Below the pieces are notes generated by a model. That model ran no database searches. It was not told the origin of the DNA and worked only from the letters and a program-made list of their open reading frames with translations. The translations under genes were made by a program, and so were the position numbers. Below are positions 55,565 to 62,389 of a stretch of 64,000 bases of DNA, piece by piece. Numbering within the stretch: position 1 is the first letter of the stretch; each line of letters begins with the position of its first letter. The DNA is from Teredinibacter turnerae (GTDB lineage: Bacteria > Pseudomonadota > Gammaproteobacteria > Pseudomonadales > Cellvibrionaceae), in the NCBI RefSeq assembly GCF_037935975.1, contig NZ_CP149817.1:5270001-5334000 (forward strand). Direction: 5' to 3'.

Positions 55565-55610
55565 GGCTTGCCGGCAATCCGGCGGGGTGAATCTGCTACA
55601 ATCCTCCGCC

Positions 55611-57797
55611 ATGACAGAATCTCCCCTAGTAAAAGACCTTAATAGCGCTCAGCGAGAAGCGGTAGCCGCGCCGCTGGGCAATCAACTGGTACTTGCCGGT
55701 GCTGGCAGTGGTAAAACCCGCGTATTGGTGCACCGTATCGCCTGGCTGATGGAACAGCAGAGTGTTTCGCCTCATCAGGTAATGGCGGTCACGTTCACCA
55801 ACAAAGCCGCGCGGGAAATGCGCGAGCGACTGACCCATCTCATCGGTGATCGCCTGGGGCCGCGCGGTGTGCACAGCATGTGGGTCGGCACCTTTCACGG
55901 CATTGCGCACCGCCTGCTCAAAGCCCACTGGCAGGAAGCGGGCCTGAGCCAGAACTTTCAGATTATGGATTCGGATGACCAACTGCGGCTGATCAAACGC
56001 ATTTATCAAACGCTGGCACTGGATGACAGCCGCTGGCCCGTGAAGCAGGCGCAGTGGTATATCAACAATCAGAAAGACGAGGGCCTGCGCCCGGCGCACA
56101 TCGACCCGGGACACGATCCGTTCGCTCAAACCATGAAGCTGGTATACGAAGCCTATGAAGAGGCGTGCGAGAACGCCGGGCTGGTGGATTTTGCTGAGCT
56201 GTTATTGCGCTCGCACGAGTTATGGCTGAAAAACAAATCCCTGCTCGACCACTATCAGCGCCGGTTTGTGGCCATTCTGGTGGACGAATTCCAGGATACC
56301 AACAGTGTGCAATACGCCTGGTTGCGGGTGCTGGCGGGTCACGCCTGTGCGGTAACGGCAGTGGGCGACGACGACCAGTCCATCTACGGTTGGCGCGGCG
56401 CCAAAATCGAAAATATCCAGCAGTTCGAGAGCGACTTTGCTCCGGTGGGCGTTACCCGCCTGGAACAGAATTATCGCTCCACCTCCACCATTCTCAGTGC
56501 TGCCAACGCGGTGATCGAAAACAACTTTGGCCGCATGGGGAAAAACCTGTGGACAGACGGCGGTGAAGGCGAGCCTATCGACCTTTTCGCCGGGTTTAAT
56601 GAACAGGATGAAGCGCGCTATATTGTTGAGCGAGTACAGGATTATCTGCGTGAAGATGGCAGTCGCGCGCGCACCGATTGTGCCGTGCTATACCGCTCCA
56701 ATGCCCAGTCCCGGATCCTGGAAGAGGCCTTTTTACGGGAAAATGTGCCCTACCGCATCTACGGCGGCCAGCGCTTTTACGACCGCCTGGAAATCAAAAA
56801 TGCCCTCGCCTATCTACGTTTGATAAGCAGTCGTCAGGACGATGCGGCACTCGAGCGGGTTATCAATACCCCCACGCGTGGCATTGGCGCCAAAACCATC
56901 GAAAGTATTCGTATCTTTGCCCGCGATCAGGGCTGCTCGCTCTATGCAGCCATGCAAGCGGCGCTGCGCAACAAGGTGTTTAGCGCGCGGGCGGCGGGTG
57001 CGCTAAATGGCTTTGTCGCGCTTATCGATGAGTTGGAAGAAAGCGCGGCCCAATTAACCCTGGGCGAAGCCGCTGAACTGGTGTTGGAAAAGAGCGGTCT
57101 GGTGGAGTTTCACCGCAAGGAAAAAGGTGAAAAAGGCCAGGCGCGAGTGGAAAACCTGGAAGAGCTGGTCAACGCATGTCGGCTGTTTGAACCACAGGAT
57201 GAAGAAGTCACCCCCCTGCAGGAATTTCTTGCCAACGCCGCGCTGGATGCTGGCGATGGTCAAGCCGACGAATTCGAAGATGCGGTGCAAATGATGACGC
57301 TGCACAGCGCCAAAGGGCTGGAATTTCCGCTGGTGTTTTTGGCGGGGATGGAAGAAAACCTGTTCCCCCACAAGATGTCGTTGGATGAGCCGGGCCGGCT
57401 CGAGGAAGAACGTCGATTGTGTTATGTCGGGATCACCCGCGCCATGGACAAGCTGGTGATCAGCTATGCCGAAAGTCGGCGCATGCACGGCACTGAAAAC
57501 TTCAACGCGGTGTCGCGGTTTATTCGCGAAATTCCACAGAACCTGGTGCGCGAAGTGCGCATTCAATCCACGGTCAGCCGTCCGGCGAGCTATTCCTCAT
57601 CCGCCGCAACCCGGCAAACGGAAGTGGATGATTTCCCCGATTTAAAACTGGGTCAGAGTGTGCTGCATCCGGTGTTCGGTGAAGGCACTATCACCCAGTT
57701 TGAGGGGCGCGGTGCTGGCGCTAAAGTGTATGTTAACTTTATGCGTGAAGGTGGCAAATGGCTGGCGTTGCAGTACGCCAAGCTGGAAGTTGTCTAG
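55611..57797 (+). CDS. uvrD: DNA helicase II
   Basis: This 728-residue superfamily 1A helicase has motif I LAGAGSGKTRVL, motif II VDEFQDTN, motif III GDDDQSIYGWRGA, motif IV near NYRSTSTIL, motif V/VI MTLHSAKGLEFPLVFLAGME and YVGITRAMDKL. The C-terminus ends in the Tudor-like domain (HPVFGEGTITQFEGRGAGAK) found in UvrD and PcrA. It unwinds DNA in mismatch and nucleotide excision repair. I chose ATG at 55611, since an upstream TTG frame start lies in the likely promoter (TACAAT at about 55597). Its stop overlaps the stop of the convergent di-heme gene by four bases. Confidence 0.96.
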   Translation: MTESPLVKDLNSAQREAVAAPLGNQLVLAGAGSGKTRVLVHRIAWLMEQQSVSPHQVMAVTFTNKAAREMRERLTHLIGDRLGPRGVHSMWVGTFHGIAHRLLKAHWQEAGLSQNFQIMDSDDQLRLIKRIYQTLALDDSRWPVKQAQWYINNQKDEGLRPAHIDPGHDPFAQTMKLVYEAYEEACENAGLVDFAELLLRSHELWLKNKSLLDHYQRRFVAILVDEFQDTNSVQYAWLRVLAGHACAVTAVGDDDQSIYGWRGAKIENIQQFESDFAPVGVTRLEQNYRSTSTILSAANAVIENNFGRMGKNLWTDGGEGEPIDLFAGFNEQDEARYIVERVQDYLREDGSRARTDCAVLYRSNAQSRILEEAFLRENVPYRIYGGQRFYDRLEIKNALAYLRLISSRQDDAALERVINTPTRGIGAKTIESIRIFARDQGCSLYAAMQAALRNKVFSARAAGALNGFVALIDELEESAAQLTLGEAAELVLEKSGLVEFHRKEKGEKGQARVENLEELVNACRLFEPQDEEVTPLQEFLANAALDAGDGQADEFEDAVQMMTLHSAKGLEFPLVFLAGMEENLFPHKMSLDEPGRLEEERRLCYVGITRAMDKLVISYAESRRMHGTENFNAVSRFIREIPQNLVREVRIQSTVSRPASYSSSAATRQTEVDDFPDLKLGQSVLHPVFGEGTITQFEGRGAGAKVYVNFMREGGKWLALQYAKLEVV

Positions 57798-58975
57798 CGC
57801 CGATTATCTGCGGGGTTGTTATCACCGGGCGGTTTGTTTTCGCCCGTCGGCTCCGATTGTGATGGGAGCAGACTGCGATCGGTGAGCGTGTGTAAAAACG
57901 CAACCAGGTCGTTCTTCTCGTCGGCAGATATACCGAATCCATGCACAAAAAGACTCTTATTGCGGTGCTGACGCCCGTCGCCAGGGAAGTCGCCCGTAGG
58001 GGTGTTTCTGCCGCCCGCCGCATAAAAATCAATAACCTCGGCTAGCGTTTCGATGCTTCCGTCGTGCATGTAAGGTGCGGTCAGGGCGATATTGCGCAGC
58101 GTGGGTGGCCGAAACAGCCCCTTGTCCGTTTCGTCTCCGGTCACGTCGAACGCACCGCGATCAAAATCCAGCGCTGTCTGCTCGGCATAGAGCCCCGTAT
58201 TGTGGAACCCCCGCACCGTTGTGCTGCCCCCCTCGTGAACCGTCGACTGGCTGAAGTTAAAGCCGCCGTGGCAATGTTTACATTCCAATCGTTCCGACAT
58301 AAACAGGTTCAGGCCGCGAATTTCCTGTTCGGTAAAAATATCCTCGCCATAGTACGCATAACGGTCGAATTTTGAGTCGAACGCGGTGAGGCTGCGCACG
58401 TAACTGGCCAGTGCCTTCACAATGTTATCAACAGTTATAACGTCTTTATTAATCTGTGGAAAAGTGCGGGGAAAAGCAGCTGCAAAAAGCTGTGGATAGG
58501 CTGTGTCTTCTTTAAGGCGCTGGATAACCCTGTCCTCATTGTGGGTGAGCCCCATTTCAACCGGCTTCTCGTTATACAGGGGTATGATTATCTGCCGTTC
58601 GAGTGACGTGAGATTCGGATGTGCCCAGGTAAAAGTCGCATTGTAGGCGACATTGGTGAGGCTGAGTGCATTGCGAAAGTGCCGCTCGCCCGTGCTGCCA
58701 GTGGAGGTAGCGAACGGTTCTGCAAATGCAAATTGCGGGTGGTGGCAACTGGCGCAGGCCTGTTGATTATTTCCGCTCACACGGGCATCGAAAAACAGCT
58801 TTTCTCCCAGGGTCACTTTTTCGACAGTCATGGGGTTGTCCACAGGAACCGGCGGCGGACTGAAGCCAGGTGGCAGTTCCCATGCCCAGGGCGTGGATTT
58901 TTGTCCACAGCCTGCGCACATCATACCGACAGCTATTACCAGCCAGCGGACAATCCACAGTTTATGCGCAAACAT
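57794..58975 (-). CDS. mbnH: MbnH-type di-heme cytochrome c peroxidase-family enzyme
   Basis: The exported lipoprotein-like product (MMCAGC near residue 20) has 393 residues and two heme c motifs, CASCH (74-78) and CKHCH (232-236). Its blocks (LGEKLFFDARVSGNNQQACA, FRNALSLTNVAYNATFTWAH, FRPPTLRNIALTAPYMHDGS) match the MauG/MbnH group of the bacterial cytochrome c peroxidase family. MbnH converts a Trp of its partner MbnP to kynurenine through a bis-Fe(IV) state, creating a copper site. Its start codon touches the stop of the MbnP-like gene, so the two are translated together. The enzyme would act in the periplasm. The C-terminal 25 residues are polar and probably disordered. Confidence 0.88.
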   Translation of the reverse strand: MFAHKLWIVRWLVIAVGMMCAGCGQKSTPWAWELPPGFSPPPVPVDNPMTVEKVTLGEKLFFDARVSGNNQQACASCHHPQFAFAEPFATSTGSTGERHFRNALSLTNVAYNATFTWAHPNLTSLERQIIIPLYNEKPVEMGLTHNEDRVIQRLKEDTAYPQLFAAAFPRTFPQINKDVITVDNIVKALASYVRSLTAFDSKFDRYAYYGEDIFTEQEIRGLNLFMSERLECKHCHGGFNFSQSTVHEGGSTTVRGFHNTGLYAEQTALDFDRGAFDVTGDETDKGLFRPPTLRNIALTAPYMHDGSIETLAEVIDFYAAGGRNTPTGDFPGDGRQHRNKSLFVHGFGISADEKNDLVAFLHTLTDRSLLPSQSEPTGENKPPGDNNPADNRR

Positions 58976-59872
58976 CTAGTGAATCCTGTGGAAAAGCTGT
59001 TGGGAAGTGCAGTCTGTGTGGCATTCACCGGTGTCGGCATTGAGCCCGATGGTGTCAAACATGGCCCGACATACTGGCTGCATCGCGTAGTGCATCGAAC
59101 AATCCACAGGCTCGGGGCTGTTTGTTGGCTCAGTGCTGTCTATTGGCTCAGGGCTGTTCATTGGCTCAGGGCTGCTTATCCGCTCAGGGCTGTTCATTGG
59201 CTCAGGGCTGCTTATCCGCTCAGGGCTGTTCATTGGCTCAAGGCTGCTCGACGCGTGCTTGTCCACAAGTGCGGCGAGCGCGCGGATATCCACAGCGATT
59301 TGATCGCTGGCGGGGTTGTAGTCGGGAAGTGTAATTGTCACTCGGTTCGACTGTGTACAGGGTGATGCAGGTGGGCGTATGGCAGATGGCGACTGGCAAC
59401 CCGTGCTGCCGACGTGCAACGCCCATTTGTTGCTCCCTGTGGCATCGATACGCAAGAACTTGTAACCCTGCTGCCAGCTCCAGAACATGCCGCTGTCATT
59501 CAATGGAAATGCAGCGGTGAGGGGGTTGGCGTGATTGAGTGCCTCGGGCACGCCGACGGTGAAGCGCAGGCCTCGGTAATCTCCGCCGCCTGCGGATAAC
59601 TGGCCGGATACCACCTGCTGGGTCGCTTGGTCTGTGAGGTGTATCAATGCCACTGGTTGCTTGACCGGCAGGTGCAGCGGTCGCCATTGTCCGTCACTCC
59701 CGCGCAGCTCAATAGAGGACAAATAAAACCCCATATCGATGCGCGCGCCGGACGGCACCTGTAATTCAAACCGCAGTTGTGTCGCCTGCTCTTGCGGCGC
59801 ACAACCGTTCAACGCGATTCCCACTGCGAGCAGGATCGCGCTTTTACAACTCTTTACCTGTTTAAACACCAC
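58976..59872 (-). CDS. mbnP: MbnP-type copper-binding partner protein with repeat insertion
   Basis: This lipoprotein-like product (ALNGC at about 19-23) has about 298 residues. The MbnP fold is recognisable from RIDMGFYLSSIELRGSDGQW, GDYRGLRFTVGVPEALNHAN and SGMFWSWQQGYKFLRIDATG, which hold the conserved Trp residues. Cysteines occur in GCQSPSA/SPCTQSN and, near the C-terminus, in VDCSMHY, PVCRAM and GECHTDC, fitting the four-Cys type of this family. Between the core and the last cysteines, residues about 210-257 form four 12-residue repeats (SPEPMNSPERIS type), which are unusual. It is the substrate and partner of the MbnH-type enzyme and probably binds copper. It is divergent from the choice-of-anchor gene. 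Confidence 0.87.
   Translation of the reverse strand: MVFKQVKSCKSAILLAVGIALNGCAPQEQATQLRFELQVPSGARIDMGFYLSSIELRGSDGQWRPLHLPVKQPVALIHLTDQATQQVVSGQLSAGGGDYRGLRFTVGVPEALNHANPLTAAFPLNDSGMFWSWQQGYKFLRIDATGSNKWALHVGSTGCQSPSAIRPPASPCTQSNRVTITLPDYNPASDQIAVDIRALAALVDKHASSSLEPMNSPERISSPEPMNSPERISSPEPMNSPEPIDSTEPTNSPEPVDCSMHYAMQPVCRAMFDTIGLNADTGECHTDCTSQQLFHRIH
59103..59246 (-). repeat. 36-bp tandem repeat x4 inside the MbnP-like gene
   Basis: Four 36-base units run from 59103 to 59246. The two units at 59175-59210 and 59211-59246 differ by a single base; the outer ones have diverged. Each 36-mer is itself two related 18-mers, encoding SPEPMN and SPERIS. The units keep the frame and are Pro- and Glu-rich, giving a stiff acidic linker. 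Confidence 0.93.
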
Positions 59873-59959
59873 TTATTACCTGTTTCAACACCACTTAGCT
59901 ACCATCGGTTTTATAGTTCACCTTTCACTATTTTCATTCATAGCTTGGAAAAATCCAAC

Positions 59960-62389
59960 ATGACGATTAGAACAATACAAGGATTCGTAGCAATATCGCT
60001 GCTGTTGGTCGGTATATCAGCGGCATTCGCGGATGATAATAGACCGCGCTATGTTTCCGGTACGGGCGCGGATAAAGGCGACTGCAGCAATATGTTCCGC
60101 CCGTGCCGCACAATCGCCTACGCGGTGCATCAAGCGGGCAAATTTGACAGCATCAAAGTTGCGGCCGGTGAGTTTGACCTGCAGGGGTTAGATAACCTGA
60201 TCCTGTTGCTGAGCGCGGACGTCACCGCCGGTTACGACACCCTCACCCATTTTGCGCAGCGTGACGCACAGCGCATTCGCTCACAACTGCGGGGCGTGCC
60301 GCCTGAGTACCGCAACCACTTCGAGAATCTCGGTTTCCAGGTGATTGTCGACCGCAAGGGAAAAACCGTCGCGCGCTCGGATGTGCATCAGCTTCGGCAA
60401 AAACTTGCGGTGTCTGCGATGGATCACGGGCCTGCGAGCTGCACCAATGGCAGCGCGGGCAGTTTTGCCTGCGCTGGTATCGACCTGCTCAGCCACTTGA
60501 GTTTAGCAACCCTTGGCGCGACGGCAGCCAACGATATCTGGGGTTATGTGGATCTGAACAGTTTGCGGGAATACGTGATTATCGGCCTGAATAATGGCGC
60601 TGCGATCGTTGATGTAACCGAACCGGAAGCGCCTCAGGTAGTAAGCCGCTACAACGGGCCGGATTCGGTGTGGCGCGATATAAAGGTGTATCAATACTGG
60701 GACGCAGCGAACACCCGTTGGCGCGCCGTGGCTTATATCACCACTGAAACTTCGGCGGGGCTCGCGGTTATTGATTTAAGTGGTTTGCCAAACGGGACAG
60801 TCACTCTGGCGGAGAACGCTGACTTTAGCACCGCCCACAATGTTGGCTTACTTAACGCAAACTTCGCCTACGGTACGGCGGAATCTGTTGCAGGCGGCCA
60901 GTTGCTGATTGCAGGTGCGGACAAAAATCGCGGTAATTTCCGCGTTTATAACCTGGCTTCGCCGCTCGCGCCTTCGCTCAGCACGGTGAGCGACACTGGC
61001 TATATGCACGACGCTGCACCGGTGGCGATTGACGATTCTCGTGTGGCGAGTCAATGCGGTGACGGTGAGCACTGCGAGCTGATGGCAGATTTCAATGAAG
61101 ACAGTTTCGATGTGTGGGATCTCACTCCCGGCAGCGCACCCGCGTTACTGTCCCGTACCCAGTACAGCGATATGGCTTATGTGCATTCCGGCTGGTGGAG
61201 TGAAGACGGTCAGCTGCTGTTTGTGCAGGACGAGCTGGACGAACTGCAACATGGATTGCACACGACACTGCGCCTCTACCATATGCAGGATGTGGGGTCG
61301 CCGCAATTACTGTCGCTCTGGCAAGGCCCGACCAGCGCCACCGACCACAATGGCTATGCGCGGGGCAACCGCTATTACATGTCTAACTACATGGCGGGGC
61401 TGACAGTGGTCGATTTCAGCACACCGCAAACACCGGTTCGCAGCGGGTATTTTGATACCTACCCCGCGAGCGGCATGGCAGGCTTCGACGGTGCCTGGGG
61501 CGTTTATCCATTTTTGCCTTCCGGCAGCCTCGCGGTGAGCGACATCAGTGGTGGCCTGTTTTTACTGCGAGAGCAGCGTCCGCCAGAACCAGGCGGCGGT
61601 GTACTGGAATTTAATGCAGAGGCCATCTGGTGGCAGCCGGGAAGCGCTGTTCCTGTCACCATTTCGCGCAACCATGGCTCGAGCGGCGATCTGAGCGTGA
61701 GGCTTTCTCTGAAAACACTGGGCGGTGGCGCCACCGGCGCGACTTTATCGGTAACCACCGTCACCTGGCCGCACGGCGATTTCAGCGACAAGACTGTCAC
61801 CCTGGCCTTGCCGGACAACGCCGCCGACCATGGGCCACTGCTGCTCACAATGGTGTCGCCCCAAGGCCAGGGACGACTTGGGGCGCGCAACAGTTTGCGT
61901 ATTCACCCTCACAAATCAGCAAGTGCACCGACGTTGCAACTGTTGGAGACAGCGATACGTGTGCCGGATCAACAACAGACAACGCGCGTGGTGGTTGCCC
62001 GGCGGGGCGACATCAGCAATGCATTGGAATTGCGCTGGACATTGCAGCCAGAGCTGGCGGGACAGCAGCAAGGGACGCTCCGCTGGGACGCGGGCACAGG
62101 CAAACCACAAACGCTTGAACTGCCGGTGGATACGGCTGCGGGCCGGTCAGTGCTCAGTCTGGCATCCGACAATGCAATACTCACGAGTGACTGCGCTTGG
62201 TTACAGGTGGACCTGCCAGCGCGAACAACACTGCCAGAATGTGGTGCAGCGTTGCCGCCTGATCTGACCGACGGCGGAACAGATGAAGATGGCCGGGCAC
62301 AAACCAGCAGCGGTGGCGGCGGCGCCTGGGGCCTACCCTGGCTGTGGCTTTCGTTGTGCCTAATTGCCCGACGCAATTGTCGCCGTTAA
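59960..62389 (+). CDS. Choice-of-anchor-B-type protein with GlyGly-CTERM-like tail
   Basis: The exported protein has about 809 residues. ATG at 59960 begins a signal peptide (QGFVAISLLLVGISAAFA). Residues about 30-75 look like the first rungs of a beta-helix (YVSGTGADKGDCSNMFRPCR, TIAYAVHQAGK). A long beta-propeller region of LVIVD-like repeats follows (about 150-545): YVIIGLNNGAAIVDVTEPEA, WRDIKVYQYWD and MAYVHSGWWSEDGQLLFVQD are typical of choice-of-anchor B proteins. A Calx-beta-like region is next (about 560-690). The end, GGGGAWGLPWLWLSLCLIAR plus basic residues, fits the GlyGly-CTERM signal cut by rhombosortase. It is divergent from the MbnP/MbnH pair, so joint function is plausible. 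Confidence 0.82.
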   Translation: MTIRTIQGFVAISLLLVGISAAFADDNRPRYVSGTGADKGDCSNMFRPCRTIAYAVHQAGKFDSIKVAAGEFDLQGLDNLILLLSADVTAGYDTLTHFAQRDAQRIRSQLRGVPPEYRNHFENLGFQVIVDRKGKTVARSDVHQLRQKLAVSAMDHGPASCTNGSAGSFACAGIDLLSHLSLATLGATAANDIWGYVDLNSLREYVIIGLNNGAAIVDVTEPEAPQVVSRYNGPDSVWRDIKVYQYWDAANTRWRAVAYITTETSAGLAVIDLSGLPNGTVTLAENADFSTAHNVGLLNANFAYGTAESVAGGQLLIAGADKNRGNFRVYNLASPLAPSLSTVSDTGYMHDAAPVAIDDSRVASQCGDGEHCELMADFNEDSFDVWDLTPGSAPALLSRTQYSDMAYVHSGWWSEDGQLLFVQDELDELQHGLHTTLRLYHMQDVGSPQLLSLWQGPTSATDHNGYARGNRYYMSNYMAGLTVVDFSTPQTPVRSGYFDTYPASGMAGFDGAWGVYPFLPSGSLAVSDISGGLFLLREQRPPEPGGGVLEFNAEAIWWQPGSAVPVTISRNHGSSGDLSVRLSLKTLGGGATGATLSVTTVTWPHGDFSDKTVTLALPDNAADHGPLLLTMVSPQGQGRLGARNSLRIHPHKSASAPTLQLLETAIRVPDQQQTTRVVVARRGDISNALELRWTLQPELAGQQQGTLRWDAGTGKPQTLELPVDTAAGRSVLSLASDNAILTSDCAWLQVDLPARTTLPECGAALPPDLTDGGTDEDGRAQTSSGGGGAWGLPWLWLSLCLIARRNCRR

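Follow-up and report, generated by a model that had tools for sequence, protein, structure and literature searches.

A choice-of-anchor B propeller protein with one residue that follows an adjoining MbnP-MbnH pair: a candidate partner in surface copper handling

MbnH enzymes are di-heme relatives of MauG that oxidise a tryptophan of MbnP to kynurenine, creating a copper site. We analysed a 64,000-nucleotide stretch of the Teredinibacter turnerae contig NZ_CP149817.1 (positions 5,270,001 to 5,334,000, hereafter the window) in which an MbnP-MbnH gene pair (MbnPH) is divergent from the gene of a choice-of-anchor B protein (chAB), and we show here the layout of the three genes, its conservation, the clade structure of MbnH and the dependence of one chAB residue on the pair. 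The closest described systems are the MbnP and MbnH of methanobactin operons. The same two families are present here, over both cut-offs, adjacent to each other and with the His, Met and WxW residues kept. Unlike the methanobactin operons, the locus has a dedicated divergent chAB gene, and the chAB-linked MbnH form a clade of their own. A first-pass annotation of the window had seen no methanobactin gene. Nor does the genome have an MbnB over the cut-off of 325 bits, its best match to the model scoring 58.4; the locus is not a methanobactin operon.

Two further likenesses concern copper proteins of other bacteria. MopE is described in the excerpted account as surface-associated, with kynurenine at its copper site (PMC3621798). 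In the MopE/SACCP and CorA/CorB pairs of methanotrophs, as here, the neighbour of the copper protein is related to di-heme peroxidases; unlike the locus with chAB, the excerpts on these systems mention no propeller protein. Methanethiol oxidase (SBP56) is a propeller. The gene of this copper-dependent enzyme, mtoX, lies with SCO1/senC and mauG according to the excerpted report (PMC5739008), and the operon resembles our locus in that genes for a copper chaperone and a MauG-like protein accompany a copper-dependent protein with four conserved histidines. Unlike SBP56, chAB begins with a signal peptide and ends in a sorting-signal-type tail, and the SBP56 family (PF05694) was matched neither in the genome at E ≤ 0.001 nor when chAB was scanned against Pfam at E ≤ 0.01.

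MbnPH and chAB genes stand back to back in many marine and plant-degrading bacteria; we call such chAB linked, and those without the pair beside them unlinked. Loci that duplicated others were dropped before counting (L063, on the contig of L219; L179, the window itself; L298, on the contig of L061 and counted once; and the copies L087, L095, L096, L237 and L262). In the home family, 120 genomes hold 18 MbnH loci over the cut-off and 26 chAB loci, and 6 of these 26, the window's included, are divergent from an MbnPH pair. The association is far denser in the sister family f142 (246 genomes, 98 chAB loci, 91 MbnH loci), where an over-cut-off MbnH lies within 12 kb of 75 of the 98 chAB genes, divergent in all 75 cases, and chAB is present at 75 of the 91 MbnH loci. 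A 76th case (L207, from G859) sits on a truncated contig, with both partners there and MbnH under the cut-off. Counted by genome, 79 have both, 14 chAB only (G859 included), 10 MbnH only and 143 neither (Fisher p 5e-38, uncorrected for kinship). The other 22 chAB of f142 comprise five in the YtkA arrangement described below, 15 that stand alone and bear the hairpin described in the next paragraph, and two short ones standing alone. A third family, f194, has 11 chAB in 152 genomes, 10 of them with MbnP adjoining. Across the 34 linked loci compared gene by gene, chAB, MbnH and MbnP are each found in 34 (the MbnP of two on a second pass), and the next commonest neighbour in 11, neighbours being counted without annotation. 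The first-pass annotation had named chAB as a possible third member of a copper system, a reading to be refuted by the lack of a conserved neighbourhood across genomes; these counts do not refute it. Within one large clade of MbnPH, chAB is a true third member, with a sequence that depends on the pair. Outside these three families the link is rarer. MbnP was found in none of the 35 over-cut-off chAB loci fetched from family f163 (107 genomes; 30 of the loci with 1.5 kb flanks, 18 counted), and wider stretches at 17 of the 18 counted loci (L183 included) held neither MbnP nor MbnH. When fetched over-cut-off chAB outside the home family were sorted by their neighbours in samples of the class (369 genomes) and phylum (299 genomes), linked chAB were found in G467, G683, G596 and G734 and a YtkA-type one in G363, and neither partner was found in G286, G486, G407 and G383 (contig-cut) and at both G300 loci; the chAB of G171, which passes the cut-off only when scores are summed, stands outside this sorting. 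Contig ends limit some of the unlinked assignments (0.87 kb upstream at L175, about 1.4 kb at L348). MbnPH pairs without chAB are frequent: 12 of the 18 MbnH loci in the home family, and 78 of 80 loci in an all-bacteria set of MbnH related to that of the window. In that set, with its many short flanks, chAB was found only at L061 and L063, whose contigs both belong to f142.

The N-terminal domain of linked chAB carries a two-cysteine hairpin of the pattern CxxxxR(P, A or S)C, the arginine of which is Arg47 in the window. All 92 linked chAB (6 from the home family, 76 from f142 and 10 from f194) have this arginine, and none of the 45 hairpin-bearing unlinked chAB does. The rule was first drawn from comparing chAB with and without MbnPH and then scored on larger sets. 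The YtkA-type proteins, the hairpin-less ones (L154, L156, L174, L184, L185, L194, L202, L246-L259 and L335) and L265 and L272, in which the hairpin pattern is missing, stand outside the count. Among 894 scored columns, Arg47 alone separates the two groups perfectly (1.000, the next best reaching 0.868), and residues 31-132 hold 9 of the 12 best-separating columns. On an enlarged set used for the chAB tree, the figures are 44 of 44 linked and 0 of 38 unlinked; this set includes the contig-cut L207 and L215, which were kept out of a 63-row comparison of linked, unlinked and YtkA-type chAB. The tree shows five changes of both traits, and 5 of 5 independent pairs are concordant on well supported branches. 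Where single losses of the pair are nested among linked relatives (L195, L200 and L239), position 47 is occupied by Gln, His and Lys, respectively.

We scored family f194 with the rule already known. All nine newly seen linked chAB have Arg, the tenth linked locus (G683) having served to find the rule, and the single unlinked one (G1045), with neither MbnP nor MbnH in 19.9 kb around chAB, has Lys. The remaining f142 loci gave 49 further linked chAB, all with Arg, of which 48 are new (L298 being the contig of L061). None of seven further unlinked hairpin-bearing chAB, from the rest of f142 and five f163 loci, has Arg; one of them, L333, was scored by eye as the pattern had missed it. Arg47 is kept in L295 although about 6 kb lies between chAB and MbnP. 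In the genomes examined, one chAB residue is thus present exactly when the pair adjoins, which points to cooperation of the three proteins, and from this strict co-variation we infer that MbnP may dock at the N-terminal domain of chAB.

We also placed the MbnH proteins on a tree. Among 124 MbnH-like proteins, the 34 chAB-linked rows fall into one clade of 36 (SH-aLRT 98), whose other two rows, L163 and L165, are without chAB. The MbnH of these two loci are altered at Y208, H247 and T260, which are kept in 33, 33 and 34 of the 34 linked MbnH. The link between chAB and MbnPH would thus seem to have arisen about once and to have been held over deep divergence.

In 12 loci (L141-L145, L148, L181, L192, L193, L276, L277 and L305) chAB belongs to a different arrangement, a same-strand run of chAB, a protein of 308-382 amino acids and a di-heme enzyme. 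YtkA proteins are linked to copper. The middle protein of the run carries GHMPGHVHGLPT and GWW motifs, a YtkA domain was found in all three of those scanned (E 1.4e-11 to 1.7e-10), and the di-heme enzymes of this arrangement form a separate clade with a support of 100. Together with MbnPH, this makes two differently built pairs of a (putative) copper protein and a di-heme enzyme that accompany chAB. A full-text literature search (YtkA, cytochrome c peroxidase, copper) returned nothing on this chAB/YtkA/di-heme arrangement.

The chAB protein itself consists of a signal peptide, an N-terminal domain, a propeller and a tail, in this order. An AlphaFold2 model of residues 25-560 was obtained with a mean pLDDT of 90.2 and a pTM of 0.89, and propellers are among its best structure matches. 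The best of those listed is the Sphingobium TCM1 phosphotriesterase 5hrm (E 3.0e-11, TM 0.48/0.52), which we take to be a metal-bearing propeller enzyme; the identity is 12%, and by sequence profile the match reaches an E of only 0.047. The N-terminal domain looks to us, by eye, like the start of parallel beta-helix proteins. In addition to the four propeller histidines, Trp194, Arg239, Asp240, Trp412, Asp424 and Glu425 are invariant in the 76 rows of an alignment of linked and unlinked chAB, two rows of which are one contig (L063 was kept in) and from which L187 and L188 were absent, being under the alignment cut. Several invariant residues appear in the model to begin strands of successive blades, as in an axial metal or active site, and the four histidines probably hold a metal. 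No paper using the name "choice-of-anchor B" came up in a full-text literature search.

The tail had been read at first pass as a rhombosortase-type sorting signal. It does look GlyGly-CTERM-like, and the genome encodes a rhombosortase (139.2 bits, cut-off 84), but the match to the sorting-signal model is weak: an NCBIfam scan of the last 69 amino acids gave no family at E ≤ 1, and when TIGR03501 (GlyGly-CTERM) was run on the tails of four relatives, two came just short of the cut-off of 15.5, with 13.4 and 15.0. We dropped GlyGly-CTERM as a firm assignment for this reason. At the other end of the protein, a simple pattern finds HxxH or HxxM at the mature N-terminus in 54 of 77 chAB, one of which (HFCM) is probably spurious. 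The predicted mature protein begins with His, for instance, in L153, L210 and L145; HxEH is the usual form, and HSxM that of most YtkA-type proteins. This His-first amino end is possibly copper-binding. We rejected it as a link to MbnPH because it is also found in unlinked and YtkA-type chAB and is absent from the window's clade.

We propose that MbnH, MbnP and chAB form a surface copper system. As is known for the family, MbnH would oxidise Trp131 of MbnP to kynurenine, giving MbnP its copper site. MbnP, probably a membrane-held lipoprotein, would then dock on the N-terminal domain of exported chAB, with Arg47 of the hairpin as part of the contact, both steps being suggested by the co-variation. 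Copper would pass from MbnP to chAB, with the four-histidine propeller as its holder (the direction is a guess), and the tail would anchor chAB outside the cell. MbnPH would be an add-on module for part of the chAB family, a YtkA-domain protein and a different di-heme enzyme taking its place in another branch and some chAB standing alone. For this proposal as a whole, we put the chances at about even. A wider reading is tentative, and we lean against it for now: chAB, with its four-histidine propeller, would represent a class of surface metalloproteins of its own, and pairs of a di-heme enzyme and a copper-binding protein would be interchangeable units that mature it or load it with copper, MbnP/MbnH in one part of the family and the YtkA-type pair in a second branch; the kynurenine site of MbnP would be a docking copper donor read by the arginine of its client. 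The proposal names a candidate client for kynurenine copper sites outside methanobactin operons, in free-living bacteria, and it offers one residue, natural losses and a parallel system with another putative copper protein for comparison. If true, it would give choice-of-anchor B proteins their first function. Among the titles and abstract starts listed in full-text searches, none mentions a chAB-MbnPH link, though the neighbourhood analysis of the main MbnP paper, outside that scope, may do so.

Several observations speak against this proposal. The independent switches are just five, for which a sign test gives p 0.0625, and the linked layout having about one origin on the MbnH tree means that the locus counts are not independent and overstate the evidence. 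chAB does not need MbnPH, as 45 hairpin-bearing chAB have no pair beside them, 15 of them in f142, and 14 of the 93 f142 genomes with chAB have no over-cut-off MbnH at all (one being the truncated G859). The four propeller histidines are also intact in all 31 unlinked rows, which indicates that the propeller site is independent of MbnPH; a search for propeller histidines that depend on the pair gave none. In the clade of six to which the window's chAB belongs, the His motif common at the N-terminus elsewhere is missing, and D-rich or other starts are seen. On the enzyme side, L163 and L165 keep most of the listed MbnH columns typical of the linked clade, so that their change is partial, and it represents one event. 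Finally, SBP56 is absent from the 50 structure matches listed for the chAB model, as it is from the genome by the Pfam search above; we dropped the SBP56-type fold that the mtoX precedent had offered and kept the analogy alone.

The same genes, and the same dependence of chAB on MbnPH, would be expected if copper flowed the other way, chAB collecting it at the surface and delivering it to MbnP to be taken up, perhaps in the manner of MopE or CorA in methanotrophs. The excerpted accounts describe both of these as copper proteins of the cell surface that have di-heme partners (PMC3621798, PMC3912023), which lends this view some weight. We prefer the flow towards chAB. Its histidines are kept even in lineages that lack MbnPH, so that chAB seems to have an activity in its own right, which suits a feeder less well, and a fourth gene is present in at most 11 of the 34 linked loci, whose neighbours are unannotated. 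Reverse flow seems unlikely to us, though it deserves to be kept in view. The protein that MauG modifies is a dehydrogenase with a propeller subunit, and by this precedent MbnH might oxidise a chAB residue directly, with MbnP as a helper or second substrate. Certain residues characteristic of the linked MbnH clade are indeed altered where chAB is gone, and W454 and W709 of chAB are found in 32 and 32 of 33 linked rows versus 12 and 10 of 21 unlinked ones. However, W194, W238, W412 and W513 are kept in all 63 rows, whether linked, unlinked or YtkA-type, and the residue that tracks MbnPH is an arginine and not an oxidisable aromatic, which makes direct oxidation of chAB improbable in our view.

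Two explanations do without any contact between the proteins. If MbnPH handled copper or peroxide and chAB were merely needed under the same conditions, the strictly divergent layout would suit a common control region. Against such co-regulation, the intergenic regions of 33 loci share no motif beyond what shuffles give, L295 has retained its Arg despite the distance between the genes, and co-regulation would leave unexplained why Arg47, and mainly the N-terminal domain, follow MbnPH over at least five switches; we regard it as a poor candidate. An adjacency due to chance or inheritance, without meaning, would agree with the linked MbnH being one clade and the layout having arisen about once, but the other neighbours have been reshuffled (none in more than 11 of the 34 loci) while the three genes stay together, and Arg47 depends on the pair. 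We consider this last explanation very improbable. The three-protein copper system, with transfer presumed to run towards chAB, is the reading that we favour.

The features of the locus are collected in Table 1. The first-pass description of the layout, with MbnP followed by MbnH on the minus strand without a base between them and chAB divergent across a short gap, was confirmed, and all three genes score over their NCBIfam cut-offs.

Table 1. Features of the chAB-MbnPH locus; positions are counted from the first letter of the window
Feature	Position	Strand	Remarks
MbnH-type di-heme enzyme, 393 aa	57794-58975	-	TIGR04039, 512 bits (cut-off 362.85)
MbnP, 298 aa	58976-59872	-	TIGR04052, 155 bits (cut-off 140); Pfam MbnP 6.8e-34
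MbnP Met129, Trp131, Trp133 (SGMFWSW)	59474-59488	-	kept in 43, 44 and 44 of 45 MbnP rows
MbnP His114	59531-59533	-	kept in 41 of 45 MbnP rows
Divergent intergenic region, 87 bases	59873-59959	.	between MbnP start and chAB ATG
Choice-of-anchor B (chAB) propeller protein, 809 aa	ATG 59960 to 62389	+	TIGR04312, 465.8 bits (cut-off 100)
chAB hairpin Cys42-SNMF-Arg47-Pro-Cys49	60083-60106	+	Arg47 follows MbnPH presence
chAB propeller with invariant His293, His350, His409, His463	60431-61585	+	76 of 76 aligned rows
Gly-rich, hydrophobic, basic C-terminal tail of chAB	62306-62386	+	SSGGGG, hydrophobic stretch, RRNCRR; putative rhombosortase signal

MbnH and MbnP are, by their sequences, members of their families with the copper-site residues retained. 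MbnH has two CxxCH heme motifs, at residues 74 and 232, and 6e1c is the solved structure closest to it by sequence (E 7.4e-93). MbnP matches the solved 7l6g with an E of 8.2e-12, NHxN and SGMxWxW being aligned, and contains four cysteines (C159, C172, C258 and C268). Going by the MbnP literature, Trp131 would be the residue that turns into kynurenine, with His and Met as the copper ligands. Both proteins are probable lipoproteins, judged by eye from CAGC ending at residue 23 in MbnH and from LNGC with Cys24 in MbnP. The LVIVD Pfam match of chAB scores 18.4, below the gathering score of 20.2.

Some minor observations were made on the DNA and on neighbouring genes. The MbnH stop overlaps the end of a convergent helicase-like open reading frame (55587-57797) by four bases, 57794-57797. 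A 36-bp tandem repeat of 3.9 copies (59109-59248) lies in the 3' part of MbnP and gives a SPEPMNSPERIS-type peptide repeat; in the close relative G023, MbnP is called at 262 amino acids, versus 298 in the window. A 22-bp imperfect tandem duplication (59854-59897), which G023 shares, spans the MbnP start and enters the divergent intergenic region. Among the neighbours, a conserved protein of about 110-128 amino acids with an NGKEYKxDYSK motif is encoded at 11 of the 34 linked loci (L182, L218, L219, L221, L222, L224, L226-L229 and L231), and also in L195, where MbnPH is gone. Several f194 contigs (those of L189 (G683), L234, L235, L239, L241 and L244) have their chAB match 8-10 kb from the contig start, and the chAB of L189 stands beside genes of 462, 366, 360 and 805 amino acids, a series for which dnaA-dnaN-recF-gyrB is suggested by size only. 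In the window, 37 matches to TTATCCACA with one mismatch were found, versus about 10 expected for the whole 64 kb, and 9 of these DnaA-box-like 9-mers cluster in 1.2 kb (58425-59599) inside the MbnH and MbnP genes, about 19 kb from the contig end.
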